Shown: one piece after another, positions 20,840-60,113 of the stretch
Position numbering within the stretch: the first letter of the stretch is position 1
Layout of the letters: the number at the start of each line of letters is the position of its first letter
Translations under genes and position numbers: made by a program
Notes under the pieces: generated by a model
Database searches by the model: none
What the model was told of the DNA's origin: nothing
Seen by the model: only the letters and a program-made list of their open reading frames with translations
DNA from: Rhodanobacter sp. LX-99
GTDB lineage: Bacteria; Pseudomonadota; Gammaproteobacteria; Xanthomonadales; Rhodanobacteraceae
DNA: 64,000 nucleotides
Direction: 5' to 3'
Assembly: GCF_018599185.1 (NCBI RefSeq)
Contig: NZ_JAHFVL010000002.1
Span: 496,001-560,000, forward strand

Positions 20840-20950
20840 ACAACACCCGCAAGGGGAATACGCCCGCCGGCTACCTGCGGTTTCTAGCCTCCCGACTTCC
20901 CGTCCGTCGTCATGCCGTGGACGGGCACTTCATGGAATAAGGAGGCGACC
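20840..20950 (+). promoter_or_regulatory. conserved leader upstream of XAC0095-like gene A
   Basis: This 5-prime region is repeated with high identity before the paralogue at 22259 (22160-22258). Both copies contain AATACGCCCG, GCGGTTTCTA, CCTCCCGA and a hairpin CCCGTCC...GGACGGG ending just before the AAGGAGGCGACC / TAGGAGGCGAGC ribosome binding site. Conservation of non-coding sequence next to the start suggests a regulatory RNA structure controlling translation. Confidence 0.6.
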
Positions 20951-21640
20951 ATGTCGACGTTCGATTCGGATGATCTGCAAACGACGGGCTATTTCCTGCC
21001 GGAGGACAGCCAGTTACGGCTGAAGAAGCTGCGCGAGTACGTGGAGTTCCTCTCGCATCTGGCGCAACCGCGAAGGCCGGACGAGGAGCGGGAAGGGGTT
21101 CCCGAGATTCGCCCGGGCGAAGTGGCGATCTGTCTGGAACTGCTGGAGGAGCAGATCGCTCAGGTGTTGGCTGAACTCTCCTGGCCGGCTGAACGTGGCG
21201 AAAGAGGGGCAGCACTCAAGGCCGATGCGGAAGCGGAGGTGGAGGCGGAGGTGGAGGCTGACACGGAAGTCGCGGAACCGGACGCCGCCACGTCGGTAAT
21301 GGACGAGGCCGGCAACCGCTTCCTCTTCGGCGTTACCCTGGATCAGGTCGACGAGAGCAACCTGCTGCTGAGCAGTCTCCGGGCCCTTGGCAATGTGGTG
21401 ACTTGCAGCGATCACGCCGAATTATCCGACGTCACGCTATCGATCATGGGGGATGCCATCGTCCGCGACGTGGAGAAGCTGCGCGACATCATCAGCGACG
21501 TGAATGCGCAGAGACTGGGGCCACCGCACGGTACGAAGCCCGGTGTCCGCGAGGAGTGGGCCACTTACCTCGCGCTCCCCGCGCGTTCGCCCTCGGGCGG
21601 CGCGTCGTACATCGTGCGGCAGCACCCGACCTATCAGTAG
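20951..21640 (+). CDS. XAC0095-like domain protein, copy A
   Basis: 229-aa protein. The N-terminal about 80 residues contain GYFLPEDSQLRLKKLREYVEFLSHLAQPR and RPGEVAICLELLEEQIAQVL, which I associate with the Xanthomonas XAC0095-like family of unknown function. An acidic linker follows (AEAEVEAEVEADTEVAEPD, about residues 95-115). Then comes a second domain GVTLDQVDESNLLLSSLRALGNVVTCSDHAELSDVTLSIMGDAI and a tail ending VRQHPTYQ. The GNVVTCSDHAE segment suggests a bundle resembling DUF3077/DUF6124 C-termini. The start is decided by AAGGAGG. Confidence 0.75.
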   Translation: MSTFDSDDLQTTGYFLPEDSQLRLKKLREYVEFLSHLAQPRRPDEEREGVPEIRPGEVAICLELLEEQIAQVLAELSWPAERGERGAALKADAEAEVEAEVEADTEVAEPDAATSVMDEAGNRFLFGVTLDQVDESNLLLSSLRALGNVVTCSDHAELSDVTLSIMGDAIVRDVEKLRDIISDVNAQRLGPPHGTKPGVREEWATYLALPARSPSGGASYIVRQHPTYQ

Positions 21641-22258: not shown

Positions 22259-22960
22259 ATGTCGACGATCGATGCGGATGATCTGGAAGCGACCGGCTAT
22301 TTCCTGCCGGAGGACACTTGGTTGCGGCTGAAGAAGCTGCGTGAGCATGTGGAGTTCCTGGCCAACCTGGCGCGGCCGCGCATAGGAGACGAGGCCAAGG
22401 AGTGGTATGCGGAGATTCGCCCAGGCGAGGTGGCGATCTGCCTGGAACTGCTGGAGGAGCAGATCGCTCAGGTGCTGGACGAACTCTCCTGGCCGGCCGA
22501 GCGTGGCGAAAGGGCGATGGCACCCAAGGCCGATGCGGGGACGGAAGCGGACGAGGACGCTTTGGCCATGGAAGCCATGGAACCGGACGTTGCCGAGCCG
22601 GACGTCGCCGGGCCGGTGGGGGATGAGCCCGGTAACCGCCTCCTCGTCGGCGTCAGCCTGAATCAGATCGACGAGATCGACCTGCTGCTGGGCAGCCTGC
22701 GGGCGCATGGCAATGTGGTGACTTGCAGTGATCATGCCGAGTTGAGCGACTTCACGCTGTCGATCATGGGGGATGCCATCACCCGCGATGCGGAGAAGCT
22801 GCGCGACATCATGGACGACGTGAATGGGCAGAAGCTGGAGCCACCGCACGGTACGAAACCCGGCGTGCGCGACGAGCGGGCCAGCTACCTCGCGCTCCCC
22901 GCGCGTTCGCCCTCGGGCGGCGCGCCCTACGTCGTGCGGCAGCACCCGACCTGCCAGTAG
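22259..22960 (+). CDS. XAC0095-like domain protein, copy B
   Basis: 233-aa paralogue of the gene at 20951, with roughly 70 percent identity. N-terminal GYFLPEDTWLRLKKLREHVEFL and RPGEVAICLELLEEQIAQVLDEL are conserved. The acidic linker is different (DEDALAMEAMEPDVAEPDVA, probably an expanded repeat of EPDVA). The C-terminal domain GVSLNQIDEIDLLLGSLRAHGNVVTCSDHAELSDFTLSIMGDAI is retained. A third, unlinked function is not evident. The XRE gene separates the two copies. Confidence 0.75.
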   Translation: MSTIDADDLEATGYFLPEDTWLRLKKLREHVEFLANLARPRIGDEAKEWYAEIRPGEVAICLELLEEQIAQVLDELSWPAERGERAMAPKADAGTEADEDALAMEAMEPDVAEPDVAGPVGDEPGNRLLVGVSLNQIDEIDLLLGSLRAHGNVVTCSDHAELSDFTLSIMGDAITRDAEKLRDIMDDVNGQKLEPPHGTKPGVRDERASYLALPARSPSGGAPYVVRQHPTCQ

Positions 22961-23855: not shown

Positions 23856-24362
23856 CTACATGAGCACGCATCCACATCGGGCCTTGGCGCCCTTTTTTGC
23901 CTTGGCAGTCGTCCAGCCGAACTTGTCGCCCAATGCATTGCATTGATCGTTCACTTCCTCGGGAGTCGAGAAGTACATCTGGAAGTTGGCAATATCGAGT
24001 GTGACCGGTCCAGGCGTATCCGTGCCTCCATATCGGAGCCGGTCGATACCGTAGCCGAGCCTGATGGCCGGTGACATGAAGAGCTTGACGTCCCCGGAAT
24101 GGCGAAAATTGGTCGCGACGAGAATGTTGCTCTGTCGGCAACCGGCAAGAAACTTCTTTATCTTCGTGACCGTGGCTTCATCGCTGCCGCCGCCCATGCT
24201 CTCCGGGTAGTACTGTCTTCCCGTGAGGTGCGCAAAGAGGGTTTCATCCGCGTTCTGGGCGGCGATCGCGAGGCAGTCGCCGACACCTCGGGTCCATATG
24301 TAACGCTCGCTGGTGCTGTTCGATACGATCTGGTATTCGCCCATCTCCACTTCGATGCTCAT
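23856..24362 (-). CDS. putative CheD/CNF1-like deamidase with C-terminal CaaX-type tail
   Basis: 168-aa soluble protein of no named family. Residues 20-49 read YIWTRGVGDCLAIAAQN...TLFAHLTG. The Thr24-Cys30 spacing and His45 match the Thr-Cys-His active-site pattern of CheD-type glutamine deamidases. The C-terminus is polybasic (AKAKKGAKAR) followed by CGCVLM, so the last four residues CVLM form a eukaryotic CaaX box with an extra upstream cysteine, as in Ras proteins. ATG 24362 follows AAGGAGG. There is no signal peptide. Function as a host-directed effector is inferred; the active-site match is by eye. Confidence 0.7.
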   Translation of the reverse strand: MSIEVEMGEYQIVSNSTSERYIWTRGVGDCLAIAAQNADETLFAHLTGRQYYPESMGGGSDEATVTKIKKFLAGCRQSNILVATNFRHSGDVKLFMSPAIRLGYGIDRLRYGGTDTPGPVTLDIANFQMYFSTPEEVNDQCNALGDKFGWTTAKAKKGAKARCGCVLM

Positions 24363-25024: not shown

Positions 25025-25651
25025 CTAGAAGTGTCTGGCGTGGCCTGGATACATGAATTCCGGAACCAGCAACCTGCTCCTGCAGAACGTGCAGTGGATG
25101 TCGGTGTAGTCCATGGCGGCCAACGCAGCCACCACTTCTTCAAGTGTCACGTAGCCTGTGAATCGGCGATTGCGCACGGTCACGATATCCCTTGCAGGAT
25201 TTGACCTGTTCAATAGACCGAGGATGTCGTTCGAGACTACGGTGTTTCTTTCGCCGACAAAATTGCTGACGGCGCCCCTCCAGGAGGTGTCTTCGGAGGG
25301 GTTGATCTTTGCCAGGCCGTAATTGGTGCAGTTGGTACCAGACACGTACGTCTTGGATGACACGACTTCGTTGCGCAGGACCTGTTTCACGACGTTGGCC
25401 CAACTTAGCTGAGTGCCGTCGTCATACCTCGCTATCGTGGTTCCTGACACGACTGCTTTTCCGCCCGGCGTGTAGAAATGGATGCTGATCTGGTGGCCTG
25501 CGTTGTTGGTCGGAATGGGAAATTGGTTTCTCTGGTGCGGGGATTTGAACCCGTGCGAATCGATGACGACATGGTCGCCGCTCTTTGCGCCGTTGTTCTT
25601 CGTGTAAAGATAAAGTTGATCGTTGAGAATCGACGTTCTTCCGGCAGGCAT
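25025..25651 (-). CDS. Stv-like putative adhesin/effector-domain protein
   Basis: 208-aa protein without signal peptide. DHVVIDSHGFKS followed by FPIP...HQISIHFYTPGGKAV resembles the Stv putative adhesin domain (a histidine-glycine motif and an FY strand). The C-terminal segment has two further cysteines (IHCTFCRSRLL). A separate SGTNCTNYGLAKI motif could be a catalytic cysteine region. ATG 25651 has GAGGAG with a 6-nt spacer. The domain occurs in plant-pathogen and other proteobacterial secreted proteins. Function is unproven and the assignment is by pattern only. Confidence 0.5.
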   Translation of the reverse strand: MPAGRTSILNDQLYLYTKNNGAKSGDHVVIDSHGFKSPHQRNQFPIPTNNAGHQISIHFYTPGGKAVVSGTTIARYDDGTQLSWANVVKQVLRNEVVSSKTYVSGTNCTNYGLAKINPSEDTSWRGAVSNFVGERNTVVSNDILGLLNRSNPARDIVTVRNRRFTGYVTLEEVVAALAAMDYTDIHCTFCRSRLLVPEFMYPGHARHF

Positions 25652-27447: not shown

Positions 27448-28563
27448 ATGGAAAAGAAGAGTCCGGCGCAGATTGGTGCAGAAATCCAGAAGTTCTTTCC
27501 CCACTTCAACTCCGACAAGCAGAAGAACGACAAGGCCAAGTTCAAGGGCGCGTTCGAGAACCGCGATGGCCTGATGGTGTATGCCGGCGAATCGGCGCTG
27601 TTCCACGACTTGTGCCAGATCGGTGCACTGCTGACGGATGAGGCCGTGTGCCTGAAACACCTCAAGACGTTGAATGAGCGGATGGTGTTCGAATTCGCGC
27701 AGCTGAACTCCGAAGACCCTCGCATCAAGTCGCCCACGCTCACGCCGCGGATGGGGAACGACCAGGCCTACAAGAATGTCGACAGGCCACAGTGGCTGCT
27801 GGGCAAGCCGCCGAAGTTCGGCGGCATCCTCAAGAAGATCCTCATGGAGGAAGAGCTGAAGTGGGGATTCAACGGCACCGAGGCCGAGCCGACCGAACTG
27901 CCCACCTTGTCCGGGTTCGTCCACCCCGACAGCTTCAACAACCTGCTGCTGCGGCAGGCGCGCCACTGGAAGGACCCGGGCGCTTCCATCAATCACGGCG
28001 AATACACGCATCGCCTGCAGTGGTGGATCATCTGCTGCGAACACGCCAGCGGCGGCCTGTACCGCCTGAAGCAGCCCCCCGTGAAGCGCTTCCGGCAACT
28101 TCCGAAATACACGACCTCGCATTGGCGTGGTGCGCAGATCGCGGCCAACGGCGCGACCCTCGAGACGGCCAGCCAGTATCCCACCCTGGCGGACGTCTAC
28201 ACCAACCGCTCGCTTTGGGATTTCCTGTGCGACTGCGTGCCGGCCGACGATTCCATGAAGGAGAGCACGCCGGCCAGCGATACGTTCCGTTCGCCCCAGT
28301 ACATGAACCTGTACCTGACGGCCCCCGCCCGCGAATTCGACCAGCCCGAAATCCGCGTGCTCTACAACTACCTGGTGGCGCGCTTCAACAAACGCACCTG
28401 GCAGAACGCCAACAACATGCTGCGGCCCTACAAGGCCGTGCTGGCAAAGAAGTGGGGCATGAGCGAGGGGCAATTCGACCTGGCTTTCGCGGACGTATCG
28501 AAGTACGGCCAGACGGACGTCTTCGCCACCGTCGACGGGCAGGTGGTGAGCAAACCCAAATGA
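27448..28563 (+). CDS. possible LirA/MavJ-type effector-like protein
   Basis: 371-aa soluble protein without signal peptide or membrane segment. The pattern of conserved blocks (SPTLTPRMGNDQAYKNVDRP, WLLGKPPKF, KDPGASINHGEYTHRLQWW) reminds me of proteins annotated as LirA/MavJ family type IV secretion effectors, first named in Legionella. This is recalled, not computed, and I give it moderate weight. Function of that family is unresolved. The ATG has a GGGAG ribosome binding site. No secretion system genes are in the window, but two CaaX-tailed proteins flank it. Confidence 0.5.
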   Translation: MEKKSPAQIGAEIQKFFPHFNSDKQKNDKAKFKGAFENRDGLMVYAGESALFHDLCQIGALLTDEAVCLKHLKTLNERMVFEFAQLNSEDPRIKSPTLTPRMGNDQAYKNVDRPQWLLGKPPKFGGILKKILMEEELKWGFNGTEAEPTELPTLSGFVHPDSFNNLLLRQARHWKDPGASINHGEYTHRLQWWIICCEHASGGLYRLKQPPVKRFRQLPKYTTSHWRGAQIAANGATLETASQYPTLADVYTNRSLWDFLCDCVPADDSMKESTPASDTFRSPQYMNLYLTAPAREFDQPEIRVLYNYLVARFNKRTWQNANNMLRPYKAVLAKKWGMSEGQFDLAFADVSKYGQTDVFATVDGQVVSKPK

Positions 28564-29806: not shown

Positions 29807-30163
29807 CTAGGCCGGCAAGCTGACCACCGGCGCGAAGCCGCCGAAGATCATGCGCTTGCCGTCGAAGGGCATGTCGCCGGCGGCCGCCATGCGGGGATCC
29901 TTCATGATCTTCTCCATGCCGGCGTCACGGGTGGCCTTGTCGGGCCATTCGATCCAGGAGAACGCCACGGATTCGTCCGGCTTTGCCTGCACGGCGCGGC
30001 GGAAGTCGGTGAGCTTGCCGTCGGGCACGTCGTCGCCCCAGCACTCCATCACGCGGGTGGCGCCGAACTCCATGAAAATGGCGTCGAAGGTGTTGGCATG
30101 CGCAATGAACTTGTCGCGGTTGGCGTTGGGTACGGCGATCACGAAACCATCGATGTAGGACAT
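29807..30163 (-). CDS. DUF1428 domain-containing protein
   Basis: 118-aa dimeric ferredoxin-like-fold protein of the DUF1428 family: MSYIDGFVIAVPNANRDKFIAHA, MECWGDDVPDGKLTDFRRAV and MIFGGFAPVV are all typical. The function of the family is unknown; it is related in fold to antibiotic biosynthesis monooxygenases. A leftward single-gene unit. Confidence 0.92.
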   Translation of the reverse strand: MSYIDGFVIAVPNANRDKFIAHANTFDAIFMEFGATRVMECWGDDVPDGKLTDFRRAVQAKPDESVAFSWIEWPDKATRDAGMEKIMKDPRMAAAGDMPFDGKRMIFGGFAPVVSLPA

Positions 30164-30477
30164 GGTGTTCTCCTTGGTGGCGGGGGGCTGGTGCGGCGCC
30201 CCTCACTTGGGCGACGAACGAGAGCGGATGCGATCGACATCGGGCGTGGACAAGGAGGTCAAATCGTACGCTGACTCTGGTTTCATCTCGCCTGACTGTC
30301 CAATGTGCTCATGCTCCACATCCTCTCGTGCCGTGCCACCTGCCCGAGACACCCGGCTGGCTAAGGGGACGGAGTGGATTACCCCGTCTCTTTGGGCGGC
30401 TATCCGGCGGCCGCCGGCGGAGTAAGCTGTGGCCTCCCTGCGACCGGCTCACCATCTCCCACCTTGCGGAGCGTGCC
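30164..30477. other. intergenic region between divergent genes
   Basis: 314 nt. It contains a 14-bp perfect palindrome CCGGCGGCCGCCGG (30404-30417) about 60 nt before the CTLL-tailed gene, and GGGGACGG...CCCCGTC pairing near 30365-30388. No gene is recognised. Confidence 0.45.
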
Positions 30478-30972
30478 ATGTCCCGATTGACCGACAAACA
30501 GCTGAAGGCCTGGGCCCTGCCGTATTCCACCCAGAACAAGGGTGACTGCGCGGGCGTGACGAAGCAGCTTCTGGAGGCGAGTTTCGGCAACTACGCCGGC
30601 GACCCTCCGACCGAGCGGAGGAAGAAGGCGGTCCGCATCCCGCTCCGGGAAAAAACCTCCCACACTGGTGTGCTTCTCCGTTGGGACGCTACGGGCGAAG
30701 AGGTGATCGTGGACGCCACGATCCAGCAGTTCGGCGGTGAAAAACGGGTCTTCGTCGGCAGCTACGACGAGTGGGTAGAGCGCCTGAAGGTGCTGAACAG
30801 CGTGGACCACGTGGAACCTGTCGATGCGGACTTCGGCTTCATGTACGACGTGCTCGATACCGTGAACGCCATGGACAGGAACGACCTGCGGCGAAGCAAG
30901 GGCAGTGCGAGCAGCGAGGCCCACCAGGCCGAGACGCTCAAGAAAGGCTGCTGCAACTGCACGCTGCTGTGA
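30478..30972 (+). CDS. putative papain/transglutaminase-like enzyme with C-terminal CaaX-type tail
   Basis: 164-aa soluble protein without signal peptide. A Cys-His-Asp set is visible in the order of papain-like/transglutaminase-type folds: NKGDCAGVT (Cys24), EKTSHTGVLLRW (His62) and EEVIVDATIQQF (Asp79). Such folds include toxins that deamidate or cleave host proteins. The C-terminus is LKKGCCNCTLL: a basic pair, two palmitoylatable cysteines and the CaaX box CTLL, whose final Leu predicts geranylgeranylation. The closest visual parallel is the RhoB tail. ATG 30478 has GGAG upstream. The effector role is inferred. Confidence 0.7.
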   Translation: MSRLTDKQLKAWALPYSTQNKGDCAGVTKQLLEASFGNYAGDPPTERRKKAVRIPLREKTSHTGVLLRWDATGEEVIVDATIQQFGGEKRVFVGSYDEWVERLKVLNSVDHVEPVDADFGFMYDVLDTVNAMDRNDLRRSKGSASSEAHQAETLKKGCCNCTLL

Positions 30973-31061: not shown

Positions 31062-31907
31062 CTACCGCTGGCGCTTGGCTGCATACATTGCGCGGTCGGC
31101 GTGCGCCAGCAGGATGTCCGGGTCGCTTCCGTCCGCCGGGAAGCAGGCGATGCCGACACTGGCATCCAGCCGGAACAAACCGTCGGGCAGCGTGAAGGGC
31201 GGGCCCAGGCAGGCGCGGAGGCCTTCGGCGACGGCCCGGGCGGCCTCGGCGTCGTGGCAGCCGGGCAGCAGCGCGACAAACTCGTCGCCACCGACGCGGG
31301 CGACCAGGTCGCCCTTCCGAAGACCCTGCTGCAGGCGCTGTGCGACTTCGCGCAGCAGGCGGTCGCCGGCGTCGTGTCCACCCCGGTCGTTGACCTCCTT
31401 GAAGCCGTCAAGGTCCAGGTAGAGCACGGCCAGGCCGTCGCCGGTCTGCGTCGCGTGTGCGATGGCGTATTGCAGCTCGCATTGCAGCTGGTGACGGTTG
31501 GACAATCCGGTCAGCGGATCGTGGCTGGCACGGTGCTCGAGTTCGCGTTCGGCGCGGCGCAGTTCGGTCACCTCGTGGGCCACGCCGATGCGCACGCCGT
31601 ACTCGGGCAGCCAGCGGGCCGACCACTGGATGTCCACGCTGTGGCCGTCCTTGTGCACGTAGCGGTTGCGGAAGTGGCGCTGCAGCGCGCCGTCCATCAC
31701 CTGTTCGGCCTGCTGCACGGTTGCCGCGCGGTCGTCGGGATGGACCAGGTCGAATATTCGCCGGCCAAGCACCTCGTCGCGGGTGTAGCCGAAGATGCGC
31801 TCGAAGCTCGCACTGACGTACAGGAAGTGGCCTTCGGCATCGACGACGCAGGCCGCGTCAGGCAGCAGGTCGAGCACGTCGGCGAGGGGAGGCAGCTTCG
31901 GGATCAT
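31062..31907 (-). CDS. PAS-GGDEF diguanylate cyclase
   Basis: 281-aa cytoplasmic protein. Residues about 10-125 form a PAS sensor domain (PDAACVVDAEGHFLYVSASFERIFGYTRDEVLGRRIFDLVHPDD). Residues 126-281 form a GGDEF domain with the intact active loop RVGGDEF and the substrate motif DLDGFKEVND. It should condense two GTP to cyclic di-GMP in response to a ligand or redox signal sensed by PAS. There is no transmembrane segment. No inhibitory RxxD site is seen directly before the GGDEF loop (DLVARVGGDEF). Confidence 0.93.
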   Translation of the reverse strand: MIPKLPPLADVLDLLPDAACVVDAEGHFLYVSASFERIFGYTRDEVLGRRIFDLVHPDDRAATVQQAEQVMDGALQRHFRNRYVHKDGHSVDIQWSARWLPEYGVRIGVAHEVTELRRAERELEHRASHDPLTGLSNRHQLQCELQYAIAHATQTGDGLAVLYLDLDGFKEVNDRGGHDAGDRLLREVAQRLQQGLRKGDLVARVGGDEFVALLPGCHDAEAARAVAEGLRACLGPPFTLPDGLFRLDASVGIACFPADGSDPDILLAHADRAMYAAKRQR

Positions 31908-58313: not shown

Positions 58314-60113
58314 CTACAGCGGCGCGCAGTGGCGGTGCAGCCACTCCAGGTCGGCGTCGTCCAGCAGCGGGCTGAGCGCGGCGCGCACGCTGGCGTGGTA
58401 GTCGTCCAGCCAGGCGCGTTCCTCCGGGTTGAGCAGGCCCGGCTCCAGTGCGCGGCGGTCGAACGGGCACATCGTCAGCGTCTCGAAGGCGAGGAATTCG
58501 CCGAACTCGGTGCGGTCGGCCTCGACCACCACGGCCAGGTTCTCGTGCCGGATGCCGTGCCGGCCGGGCTTGTACAGGCCCGGTTCGATCGAGCTGATCA
58601 TGCCCGGTTCCAGCGCCACCAGCGCGCCGCCGGCGACCGGCGGGCGGATCGACTGCGGGCCCTCGTGCACGTTGAGGAAGTAGCCCACGCCGTGGCCGGT
58701 GCCATGGCCGTAATCCATGCCCGAAGCCCACAGCGGCGCGCGCGCCAGCGCATCCAGTTGCGGGCCGCTGGCGCCCTTCGGGAAGCGTGCGCGCGACAGC
58801 CCGATCATGCCCTTCAGCACCAGGGTGGCGTCGCGGCGCTGTTCCGGCGTGGTCTCGCCCAGCGCCAGCACGCGGGTGATGTCGGTGGTGCCGCCGAGGT
58901 ACTGGCCGCCCGAATCGACCAGCAGCAGGCCCTTTGCCTGCAGCGTGCTGTGCGATTCCGGCGTGGCGCGGTAATGCGGCAGCGCGCCGTTCGCCTGGTA
59001 GCCGGCGATGGTGGCGAAGCTTTCGCCGACCCAGCCGGGCTGGGCCGAGCGTTCCTCGTGCAGCAAGGTATCGACGTCGAGTTCGGTCACCGTCATGCCG
59101 GCGGCGAGGCGCTGTTCCAGCCGGCGGAAGCCGCGCACCAGGGCGGCGCCGTCACGTCGCATCACGTCGCGGATATGGTCGAGTTCGGCGGCGCTCTTGA
59201 CTGCCTTGAAGGCAGTGCTGGGGTTCGGCGCCTCGATCCGCGCCACACCTGGCGCAATGGCTGCGGCGACCGCGCTGACCACCCGGCCGCTGTCCAGCAG
59301 CAGGCGGTCGGCAGCGCCCAGCTCCTGCAGGGCCGAGGTGATCGAGGCGTAGTCGGCGATGGCGATGCCGTCGGCGGCCAGTTTCGCGACCAGCGCGTCG
59401 CCGAGCTTGGCGCGGCCCACGAACAAGGTGGCGCGCTGTTCCGCCTGTACCAGCAGATGGGCCAGGAATACCGGGTTGCACTCCACGTCGCTGCCGCGCA
59501 GGTTGGTCAGCCAGGCGATGTCGTCGAGGCTGGACAGCAGGTGATGGGTGGCGCCGAGCCTGTGCATCGCCTTGCGCAGGCGGGTGAACTTGTCGGCGCG
59601 CGGGATGCACGCCCAGGCCAGGTCGTGCTCGACCACCGGCGCCTGCGGCAGGGCCGGGCGGTCTGCCCAGATCGCACCGGGCAGGTCCAGGTCGGTGCGT
59701 ACCGTGGCACCGCTGCCGGCAAGCTGACGCTCGATCTGGCGCTGGGTGGTCACGGCCACGCTGTCGCCGGCCACGGCCAGCACGTCGCCCTCGTGCAGAT
59801 GCTGCTGCAGCCACTCGAGATGCTCGGGCGTATGCGGCACGCGCAGCTTCATCAGGCTGACGCCGCTGCCGGCGAGCTGCTGCCCGGCCTGCGAGAAGTA
59901 GCGCGAGTCGGTCCACAGCCCGGCCTGGTCGCGGCTGACGATCAGGGTGCCGGCCGAACCGGTGAAGCCGGACAGCCATTCGCGCGCGGCCCAATGGGCC
60001 GGCAGGTATTCGGACAGGTGCGGATCGGCGCTGGGTACCAGCACGGCGGCGACGCCGTGCTGCTGCATGGCCGCGCGCAGGGCGGCGAGACGGGCGGGGA
60101 CGGGGTTGTTCAT
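58314..60113 (-). CDS. aminopeptidase P family (Xaa-Pro aminopeptidase)
   Basis: 599-aa M24 metallopeptidase of the long aminopeptidase P type (XPNPEP1-like). It has two N-terminal creatinase-like domains (1-300), then the pita-bread catalytic domain. Metal ligands are in LLVDSGGQYLGGTTDITR, GHGTGHGVGYFLNVHEGP, SSIEPGLYKPGRHGIRHENL and EFLAFETLTMCPFD. It removes N-terminal residues before proline. It runs leftward, converging with the cysteine synthase gene (9 nt between stops). Confidence 0.94.
   Translation of the reverse strand: MNNPVPARLAALRAAMQQHGVAAVLVPSADPHLSEYLPAHWAAREWLSGFTGSAGTLIVSRDQAGLWTDSRYFSQAGQQLAGSGVSLMKLRVPHTPEHLEWLQQHLHEGDVLAVAGDSVAVTTQRQIERQLAGSGATVRTDLDLPGAIWADRPALPQAPVVEHDLAWACIPRADKFTRLRKAMHRLGATHHLLSSLDDIAWLTNLRGSDVECNPVFLAHLLVQAEQRATLFVGRAKLGDALVAKLAADGIAIADYASITSALQELGAADRLLLDSGRVVSAVAAAIAPGVARIEAPNPSTAFKAVKSAAELDHIRDVMRRDGAALVRGFRRLEQRLAAGMTVTELDVDTLLHEERSAQPGWVGESFATIAGYQANGALPHYRATPESHSTLQAKGLLLVDSGGQYLGGTTDITRVLALGETTPEQRRDATLVLKGMIGLSRARFPKGASGPQLDALARAPLWASGMDYGHGTGHGVGYFLNVHEGPQSIRPPVAGGALVALEPGMISSIEPGLYKPGRHGIRHENLAVVVEADRTEFGEFLAFETLTMCPFDRRALEPGLLNPEERAWLDDYHASVRAALSPLLDDADLEWLHRHCAPL

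Follow-up and report, generated by a model that had tools for sequence, protein, structure and literature searches.

The locus

The window analysed here is a 64,000-nucleotide stretch of the Rhodanobacter sp. LX-99 genome (contig NZ_JAHFVL010000002.1, positions 496,001 to 560,000). It contains a gene for a 164-residue protein with the C-terminus LKKGCCNCTLL, which we call the CTLL protein after its last four residues, a predicted prenylation signal of the CaaX type (Table 1). The open reading frame (ORF), its length, the C-terminus and the motifs GDC(24), SH(62)TGVLL and IVD(79)ATIQQF are all as given in the initial annotation of this DNA. The codon score of the gene (47.4) is gene-like, and its start methionine is common to all nine subfamily-A rows of the family alignment described below. 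The CTLL gene is a real, well-conserved feature that combines a deamidase-like domain with a prenylation-type tail, and it lies near a second, differently folded protein of this kind, the CVLM protein.

Table 1. Positions in the window of the CTLL gene, its predicted functional residues and the neighbouring genes discussed in the text
Feature	Position	Strand	Basis
CTLL gene, 164-aa papain-like protein with C-terminal CaaX box	30478..30972	+	ORF, homologues, AlphaFold model, structural matches to PMT and SseI
GGAG, possible ribosome-binding site, 6 nt 5' of ATG	30468..30471	+	Direct sequence reading
Cys24 codon, predicted nucleophile	30547..30549	+	Invariant in 15/15 rows; N-terminus of helix 24-33 (model)
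His62 codon, predicted catalytic base	30661..30663	+	Invariant in 15/15 rows; strand 61-69 (model)
Asp79 codon, predicted third catalytic residue	30712..30714	+	Invariant in 15/15 rows; end of strand 74-79 (model)
CaaX box CTLL, Cys161 = predicted prenylation site	30958..30969	+	C-T-(L/I)-(L/F/I) in 15/15 rows
Second CaaX-tailed gene, 168 aa, CVLM, CheD/CNF1-like fold, predicted triad Thr24-Cys30-His45	23856..24362	-	Homologues, model, weak XopAK match
DUF5636 protein between both CaaX genes	27448..28563	+	Pfam PF18686; start codon
Stv-domain protein upstream of CVLM gene, same strand	25025..25651	-	Pfam PF21527, E 3.4e-17; GC 54.4%

Conservation of the CTLL family

A first protein search returned 11 relatives and a profile search 18, the latter with a second subfamily (P0020-P0024) that is ~33% identical to the first; the source names of CTLL- and CVLM-family proteins are Rhodanobacter. 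We aligned 15 full or nearly full sequences, namely the window protein, P0001-P0008, P0020-P0024 and the in-frame part of locus L003, and left out the fragments P0009, P0010, P0011, P0025 and P0026. At the level of this alignment both the predicted triad and the tail are conserved: Cys24, His62, Asp79, Thr81, Gln84, Cys161 and Thr162 are invariant, and every row ends in CTLL, CTLF, CTLI or CTIL (last residue L in six, F in seven and I in two). Three of the unaligned fragments (P0009, P0025 and P0026) end in CTLL or CTLF too. The C-terminal Cys-a-aliphatic-X arrangement expected of a host-prenylated CaaX effector is therefore kept in 15/15 CTLL-family rows, as is a CaaX-type end in 8/8 rows of the CVLM family, and the loss of the tail among orthologues that the initial annotation had named as grounds for giving up its reading was not seen in the aligned rows.

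When the alignment is divided into ten blocks, mean identity peaks over the last four columns (0.85), followed by residues 81-100 (0.76), with residues 121-160 at 0.58-0.63. The linker varies in length, and the tail takes the forms CCNC, CGGC, CGC and, in RRGCTLF, a single cysteine; Cys158 is present in 9/15 rows, and P0022 and P0024 have one tail cysteine only. A variable linker and changing extra cysteines fit a CaaX box behind a free linker and not a metal site, and we rejected a metal-binding or disulfide-bonded tail since the number and spacing of the cysteines vary and two members have the CaaX cysteine alone. Of the CC-N-CTLL tail initially described, it is thus the CTLL-type box that is conserved and not Cys158 or Cys159, and the proposal that two cysteines serve for palmitoylation does not hold across the family.

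The class I PDZ ligand rule is T-x-hydrophobic-COOH, and since Thr occupies P-2 and a hydrophobic residue P0 in 15/15 rows, the conserved tail could be such a ligand instead of a prenylation box. We consider this improbable. Equally invariant are the cysteine at P-3 and the aliphatic residue (L or I) at P-1, both of which are required in a CaaX box but dispensable in a PDZ ligand. In addition, basic residues often precede the box (KKGC, RRGC), the CVLM-family tails keep the CaaX form and lack T or S at P-2 in every case, and the CTIL end of the Salmonella effector GtgE is described as a signal dependent on geranylgeranyltransferase I (GGTase-I) (PMC13423502).

The CTLL protein matched 4 of 100 searched genomes at E <= 0.01, with matches over most of its length in its own genome and two others among 45 Rhodanobacter-genus genomes. 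The match in G060 (E 0.007, residues 57-114) was taken as chance; the other-strand ORFs at that locus are, as we read them by eye, dnaA-, recF- and dnaN-like. In the genome collection, 2 of 34 stretches found by pattern were confirmed as CTLL-family loci (Rhodanobacter sp. B04 and C05), and the plasmid collection gave no match. An ordinary intracellular Rhodanobacter enzyme with a fortuitous tail would suit a protein in which Pfam and NCBIfam scans (no signal-peptide predictor was run) recognised neither a family nor a transport domain and whose delivery is putative. Given that the last four columns are the best conserved block across two subfamilies, that the gene is sporadic with decayed copies, and that a differently folded second CaaX protein lies nearby, we give this explanation very little credence.

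Predicted fold and active site

In the AlphaFold model Cys24 heads a helix, and His62 and Asp79 lie on neighbouring strands. The three residues are in the papain-like order first noted for them, and their model positions suggest the spatial clustering on which that reading was made to depend. The top structural matches are papain-like deamidases, Pasteurella multocida toxin (PMT) and SseI, with protein glutaminases next in the list and 9l5u and 8ssm among the weak matches. The model has the papain-like catalytic fold of the PMT_C3/Tox-PLDMTX/SseI-type family, and its spacings (Cys-His 34-38 and His-Asp 17 in 15/15 rows) are taken to agree with those of the family (~38-40 and 15). When the 15 CTLL-family members were scanned against Pfam, three touched Tox-PLDMTX and one PMT_C3. 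A sequence search of solved structures returned no papain-like deamidase; its best matches, with E-values no better than 0.13, were staphostatin, LINE-1, CylK, PDI and GST. The domain is predicted to be papain-like and built like the glutamine-deamidase domains of PMT and SseI.

The catalytic domain of SseI (SrfH) from Salmonella (residues 137-322; PDB 4g2b, 4g29) shares ~15% identity with the CTLL protein in the structural alignment. SseI has an N-terminal type III secretion/membrane region with a palmitoylated Cys9 and binds the membrane via this palmitate, whereas the CTLL protein, ~164 residues as a whole, would use a prenyl group at its predicted C-terminal CaaX site. The targets of both SseI and PMT are membrane-bound G proteins. 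The structural likeness to PMT lies in its C3 domain (PF20900; PDB 2ebh, 2ec5, 2ebf); PMT is described as a large exotoxin taken up by cells (PMC6107295), unlike the CTLL protein, which consists of one small domain and its prenylation-type tail.

GtgE has the triad C45/H151/D169 and is described as a Rab-cleaving protease (PMC10333799), and its membrane association is reported to need both the CaaX cysteine and GGTase-I (PMC13423502). It resembles the CTLL protein as a papain-like Cys-His-Asp effector with a CTIL end, host-prenylated via GGTase-I, but differs in cleaving Rab32, in belonging to a Salmonella secretion system and in its longer Cys-His spacing, 106 by residue numbers; it is absent from the structural matches listed for the CTLL model, which is no evidence against kinship. 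The CTLL protein could keep its prenylated tail and yet be a GtgE-like cysteine protease, or a transglutaminase or acyltransferase, since clan CA folds with Cys-His-Asp triads are described as serving all these activities (PMC3498931). We think this unlikely, although not negligibly so, because PMT and SseI share both the best structural match and the compact Cys-His spacing that GtgE lacks, and because protein glutaminases come next among the matches.

Other effectors are related to the CTLL protein in part. TecA of Burkholderia cenocepacia is described as a deamidase of Rho GTPases with a triad like that of cysteine proteases, and as a 17 kDa non-VgrG effector of a type VI secretion system (T6SS) (PMC7641602); it acts on asparagine, is likened to the CTLL protein by description only, and in the passages of that source at hand is not said to be prenylated. 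SifA and the AnkB and Pel effectors of Legionella, the latter two type IV effectors, are reported to be host-prenylated at CaaX tails (PMC4951486), and the likeness to the CTLL protein noted here is that of the tail.

The CVLM gene and its surroundings

The CVLM gene lies 6.1 kb from the CTLL gene and its product ends CGCVLM. Because the eight aligned sequences of its family begin MSIEV (the window protein and P0013-P0019; P0012, 99% identical, was left out), the protein is of 168 residues and not the 261 of the full frame. The model matches CheD and NTAN1 (Foldseek E ~1e-5) and has the alpha-beta-beta sandwich and the (Thr/Ser)-Cys-His at +6 and +15 to +17 of CNF1/CheD-like proteins, which predicts membership of the CheD/NTAN1/BLF1/CNF1 deamidase fold group; its invariant Thr24-Cys30-His45 compares with Thr21-Cys27-His44 of CheD and Cys866-His881 of CNF1. 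His88 and Asp123 are also invariant in the family. The XopAK family matched residues 3-40 only (20.9 bits, E 2e-4), short of the NCBIfam cut-off of 150 bits, and no Pfam family was found in any of the eight members. The gene occurs in its own genome alone (1/100 searched).

The initial annotation held that two CaaX tails within 7 kb are unlikely by chance, and a crude model based on window amino-acid frequencies agrees: 0.036 such tails are expected in 54 genes, with P ~6e-4 for two or more. Tail conservation is the stronger argument. Of the 'two unrelated proteins' then proposed, the folds do differ, but both proteins look like deamidases, and the idea of a CaaX pair gains weight because the CVLM protein also matches a deamidase fold. 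The strict division into farnesyl and geranylgeranyl targeting that came with it is rejected; it is only a tendency, since last residues are mixed in both families, with M in five, L in two and Q in one of the CVLM-family tails (CVLM, CLIL, CIIL, CVIQ, CILM, CAVM and CAIM). Furthermore, CaaL, CaaI and CaaM ends are described as usable by both prenyl transferases (PMC11152559).

An excess of CxCaaX tails across the genomes of the genus was not upheld. The CxCaaX-stop pattern, which is blind to TAG stops and does not pick up the CVLM gene, gave 57 matches in the 45 genus genomes against 36 for a reversed control pattern. Among 32 matches read as loci, 24 end frames of <100 codons between stops and eight end longer frames (145-452 codons), one of them the CTLL gene, and further real cases are possible. 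The other seven long frames (L019, L021, L022, L026, L033, L034 and L043) are from other genus genomes. G026 has the most matches of the 45 genomes, nine against three for the control, and its one locus ends a 33-codon frame.

Between the two CaaX genes lie genes for Stv-domain, DUF5636, HxlR, DUF1428 and DUF1579 proteins (the last below cut-off), together with what we take by eye to be GST-like and small glyoxalase-like ORFs. Guanine-plus-cytosine content (GC) is 62.2% in the CTLL gene, 57.2% in CVLM, 54.4% in Stv and 61.3% in DUF5636, against a median of 67.5% (standard deviation 3.0, 50 called genes), and third-position GC in the CTLL (0.84) and DUF5636 (0.87) genes is near the median of 0.87. 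Therefore CVLM and Stv alone stand out as possibly recent arrivals, and the Stv-domain gene is possibly a further member of the island or a further effector. DUF5636 occurs in 4/45 genus genomes. In G019 (L051), a decayed CTLL-family gene (982-1190) retains its first ~21 codons and its last 49, still ending GCTLF, with the middle gone; a DUF5636 gene (1351-2466), 92% identical to the window's, starts ~160 bp past this remnant, directly downstream. Given this adjacency, a single island may comprise both the CTLL and the DUF5636 gene.

Elsewhere in the window, two similar ORFs at 20912-21640 and 22259-22960 (+; 242 and 233 aa) appear by eye to be a tandem duplication, the second with no Pfam family above cut-off. 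A tRNA of undetermined type called by ARAGORN at 59168-59244 (+), within a long opposite-strand ORF (58314-60113), is probably false.

Delivery and immunity

VipB and VgrG are each present once in the three CTLL carriers G000, G007 and G018; VirB10 (TrbI) is found in none of the three, and FHIPEP (flagellar or type III export) in G000 only. In G000, ten proteins scanned within the 38 kb that surround VipB include TssF, TssK, TssM, PAAR, TagF, a ClpV-like AAA protein, a PP2C phosphatase and ImpE; the names ClpV, PppA and TagJ for proteins of this cluster are our own reading. TagF, PppA and TagJ are named among the traits of T6SS group 3, which includes the anti-amoeba system of Xanthomonas citri (PMC6653060). 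The genome's own T6SS is thus probably group-3-like and is a candidate delivery route for the CTLL protein. No T6SS marker domain was found in the CTLL protein with Pfam, nor any VgrG linkage of its gene (PAAR and Hcp were not searched genome-wide). DUF5636 is named in a review as one of the putative T6SS effectors from Dyella japonica (PMC6653060) and is the only bridge between the CTLL gene and the T6SS.

The gene-like neighbours of the CTLL gene (29807-30163 and 31062-31907) are on the opposite strand, and the evident neighbours in L002 and L009, where ORFs of >=100 and >=150 aa were listed, likewise point the other way. No immunity gene, that is, no gene-like co-directional adjacent ORF, was seen in the window or in L002 (ORFs of >=100 aa) and L009, which agrees better with an effector aimed at eukaryotes than with an antibacterial one. 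Papain-like domains are found in interbacterial toxins (the weak matches 9l5u and 8ssm) and the genome has a T6SS, so that an antibacterial T6SS or contact-dependent toxin with structural C-terminal cysteines (metal or disulfide) might be considered. We regard this as very improbable, given the missing neighbour and tail cysteines that fall from three to one. Moreover, to our knowledge CaaX prenyltransferases are not present in bacteria.

Discussion

On balance we favour, with reasonable but not high confidence, the reading that the CTLL gene encodes a secreted, eukaryote-directed effector in which a deamidase-like domain is joined to a CaaX box lipidated by the host, with a GTPase as its most plausible target. 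We infer the following course of events. The protein, a papain-like amidohydrolase domain (residues 1 to ~118) followed by a variable linker and the CTLL box, would be delivered to bacterivorous protists or fungi, probably by the group-3-like T6SS. GGTase-I of the target cell would lipidate Cys161 and so bring the enzyme to a membrane. The substrate there would be a signalling protein bound to the membrane, with G-alpha or a Rho-type GTPase as the most plausible choice, and Cys24-His62-Asp79 would act on it by deamidation of a glutamine; cleavage or transamidation is less likely. The CheD/CNF1-like CVLM protein would be a second deamidase taking the same route to host membranes.

Several observations weigh against this reading. 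Regarding the domain, the CTLL protein itself matches no Pfam or NCBIfam family, the best scores in its family are below the curated cut-offs for PF20900 and PF15645 (15.8 against 27 bits for P0023; 13.3 against 26.1 for P0024), and the Foldseek E-value of the model (3.7e-3) is above 0.001. Deamidase activity is an extrapolation by analogy, because proteases (GtgE itself among them), transglutaminases and acyltransferases have the papain-like fold as well. Regarding the tail, the fragment P0011 has five extra residues beyond CTLL and no terminal box, P0010 is divergent after residue 84 with the box not at its end, and the F endings of 7/15 tails are not among the CaaL/I/M ends described for GGTase-I (PMC11152559). 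The C05 copy (L003/L010) has its N-terminus out of frame with its body, through decay or a sequencing error, and the G019 copy is internally deleted. Regarding delivery, VipB is present in 23/45 genus genomes, which makes its presence in 3/3 carriers a weak link to the T6SS; the CTLL gene (C2:526478) lies ~476 kb from the VipB cluster on the same contig, and the sole VgrG match of the genome (C2:64309) is within that cluster. Lastly, an 87-residue co-directional ORF (30162-30425) ends 52 bp upstream of the CTLL gene; we take it not to be a gene because its codon score is negative (-19.6) and it overlaps the opposite gene by 2 bases.

We also put forward, as a tentative extension, that this free-living soil bacterium may use a contractile injection system to send two CaaX-tailed deamidases of unrelated fold into grazing protists, and that the predator may itself lipidate them and so direct them to its own membrane-bound G-alpha/Rho-type switches. 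The passages of open-access literature at hand, PMC5599653 and PMC10333799 among their sources, hold no report of a prenylated T6SS effector or a CaaX-tailed deamidase, and a text search of a paper on amoeba-associated Dyella (PMC9169046) found nothing on the subject in the text covered.

Bacterial effectors that are prenylated by the host have been described in pathogens, Legionella and Salmonella among them. The present locus suggests the same modification in an environmental genus; the domains that would carry it are small and deamidase-like, and two of them, of unrelated fold, lie in a single neighbourhood. If this is true, we know of no earlier T6SS effector or deamidase that is prenylated, and the two proteins would provide a small and easily assayed enzyme pair for studies of G-protein deamidation. 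Furthermore, predatory protists or fungi would be a setting in which lipid-tailed effectors evolve, and host prenylation would be an anti-predator device outside the known pathogens.
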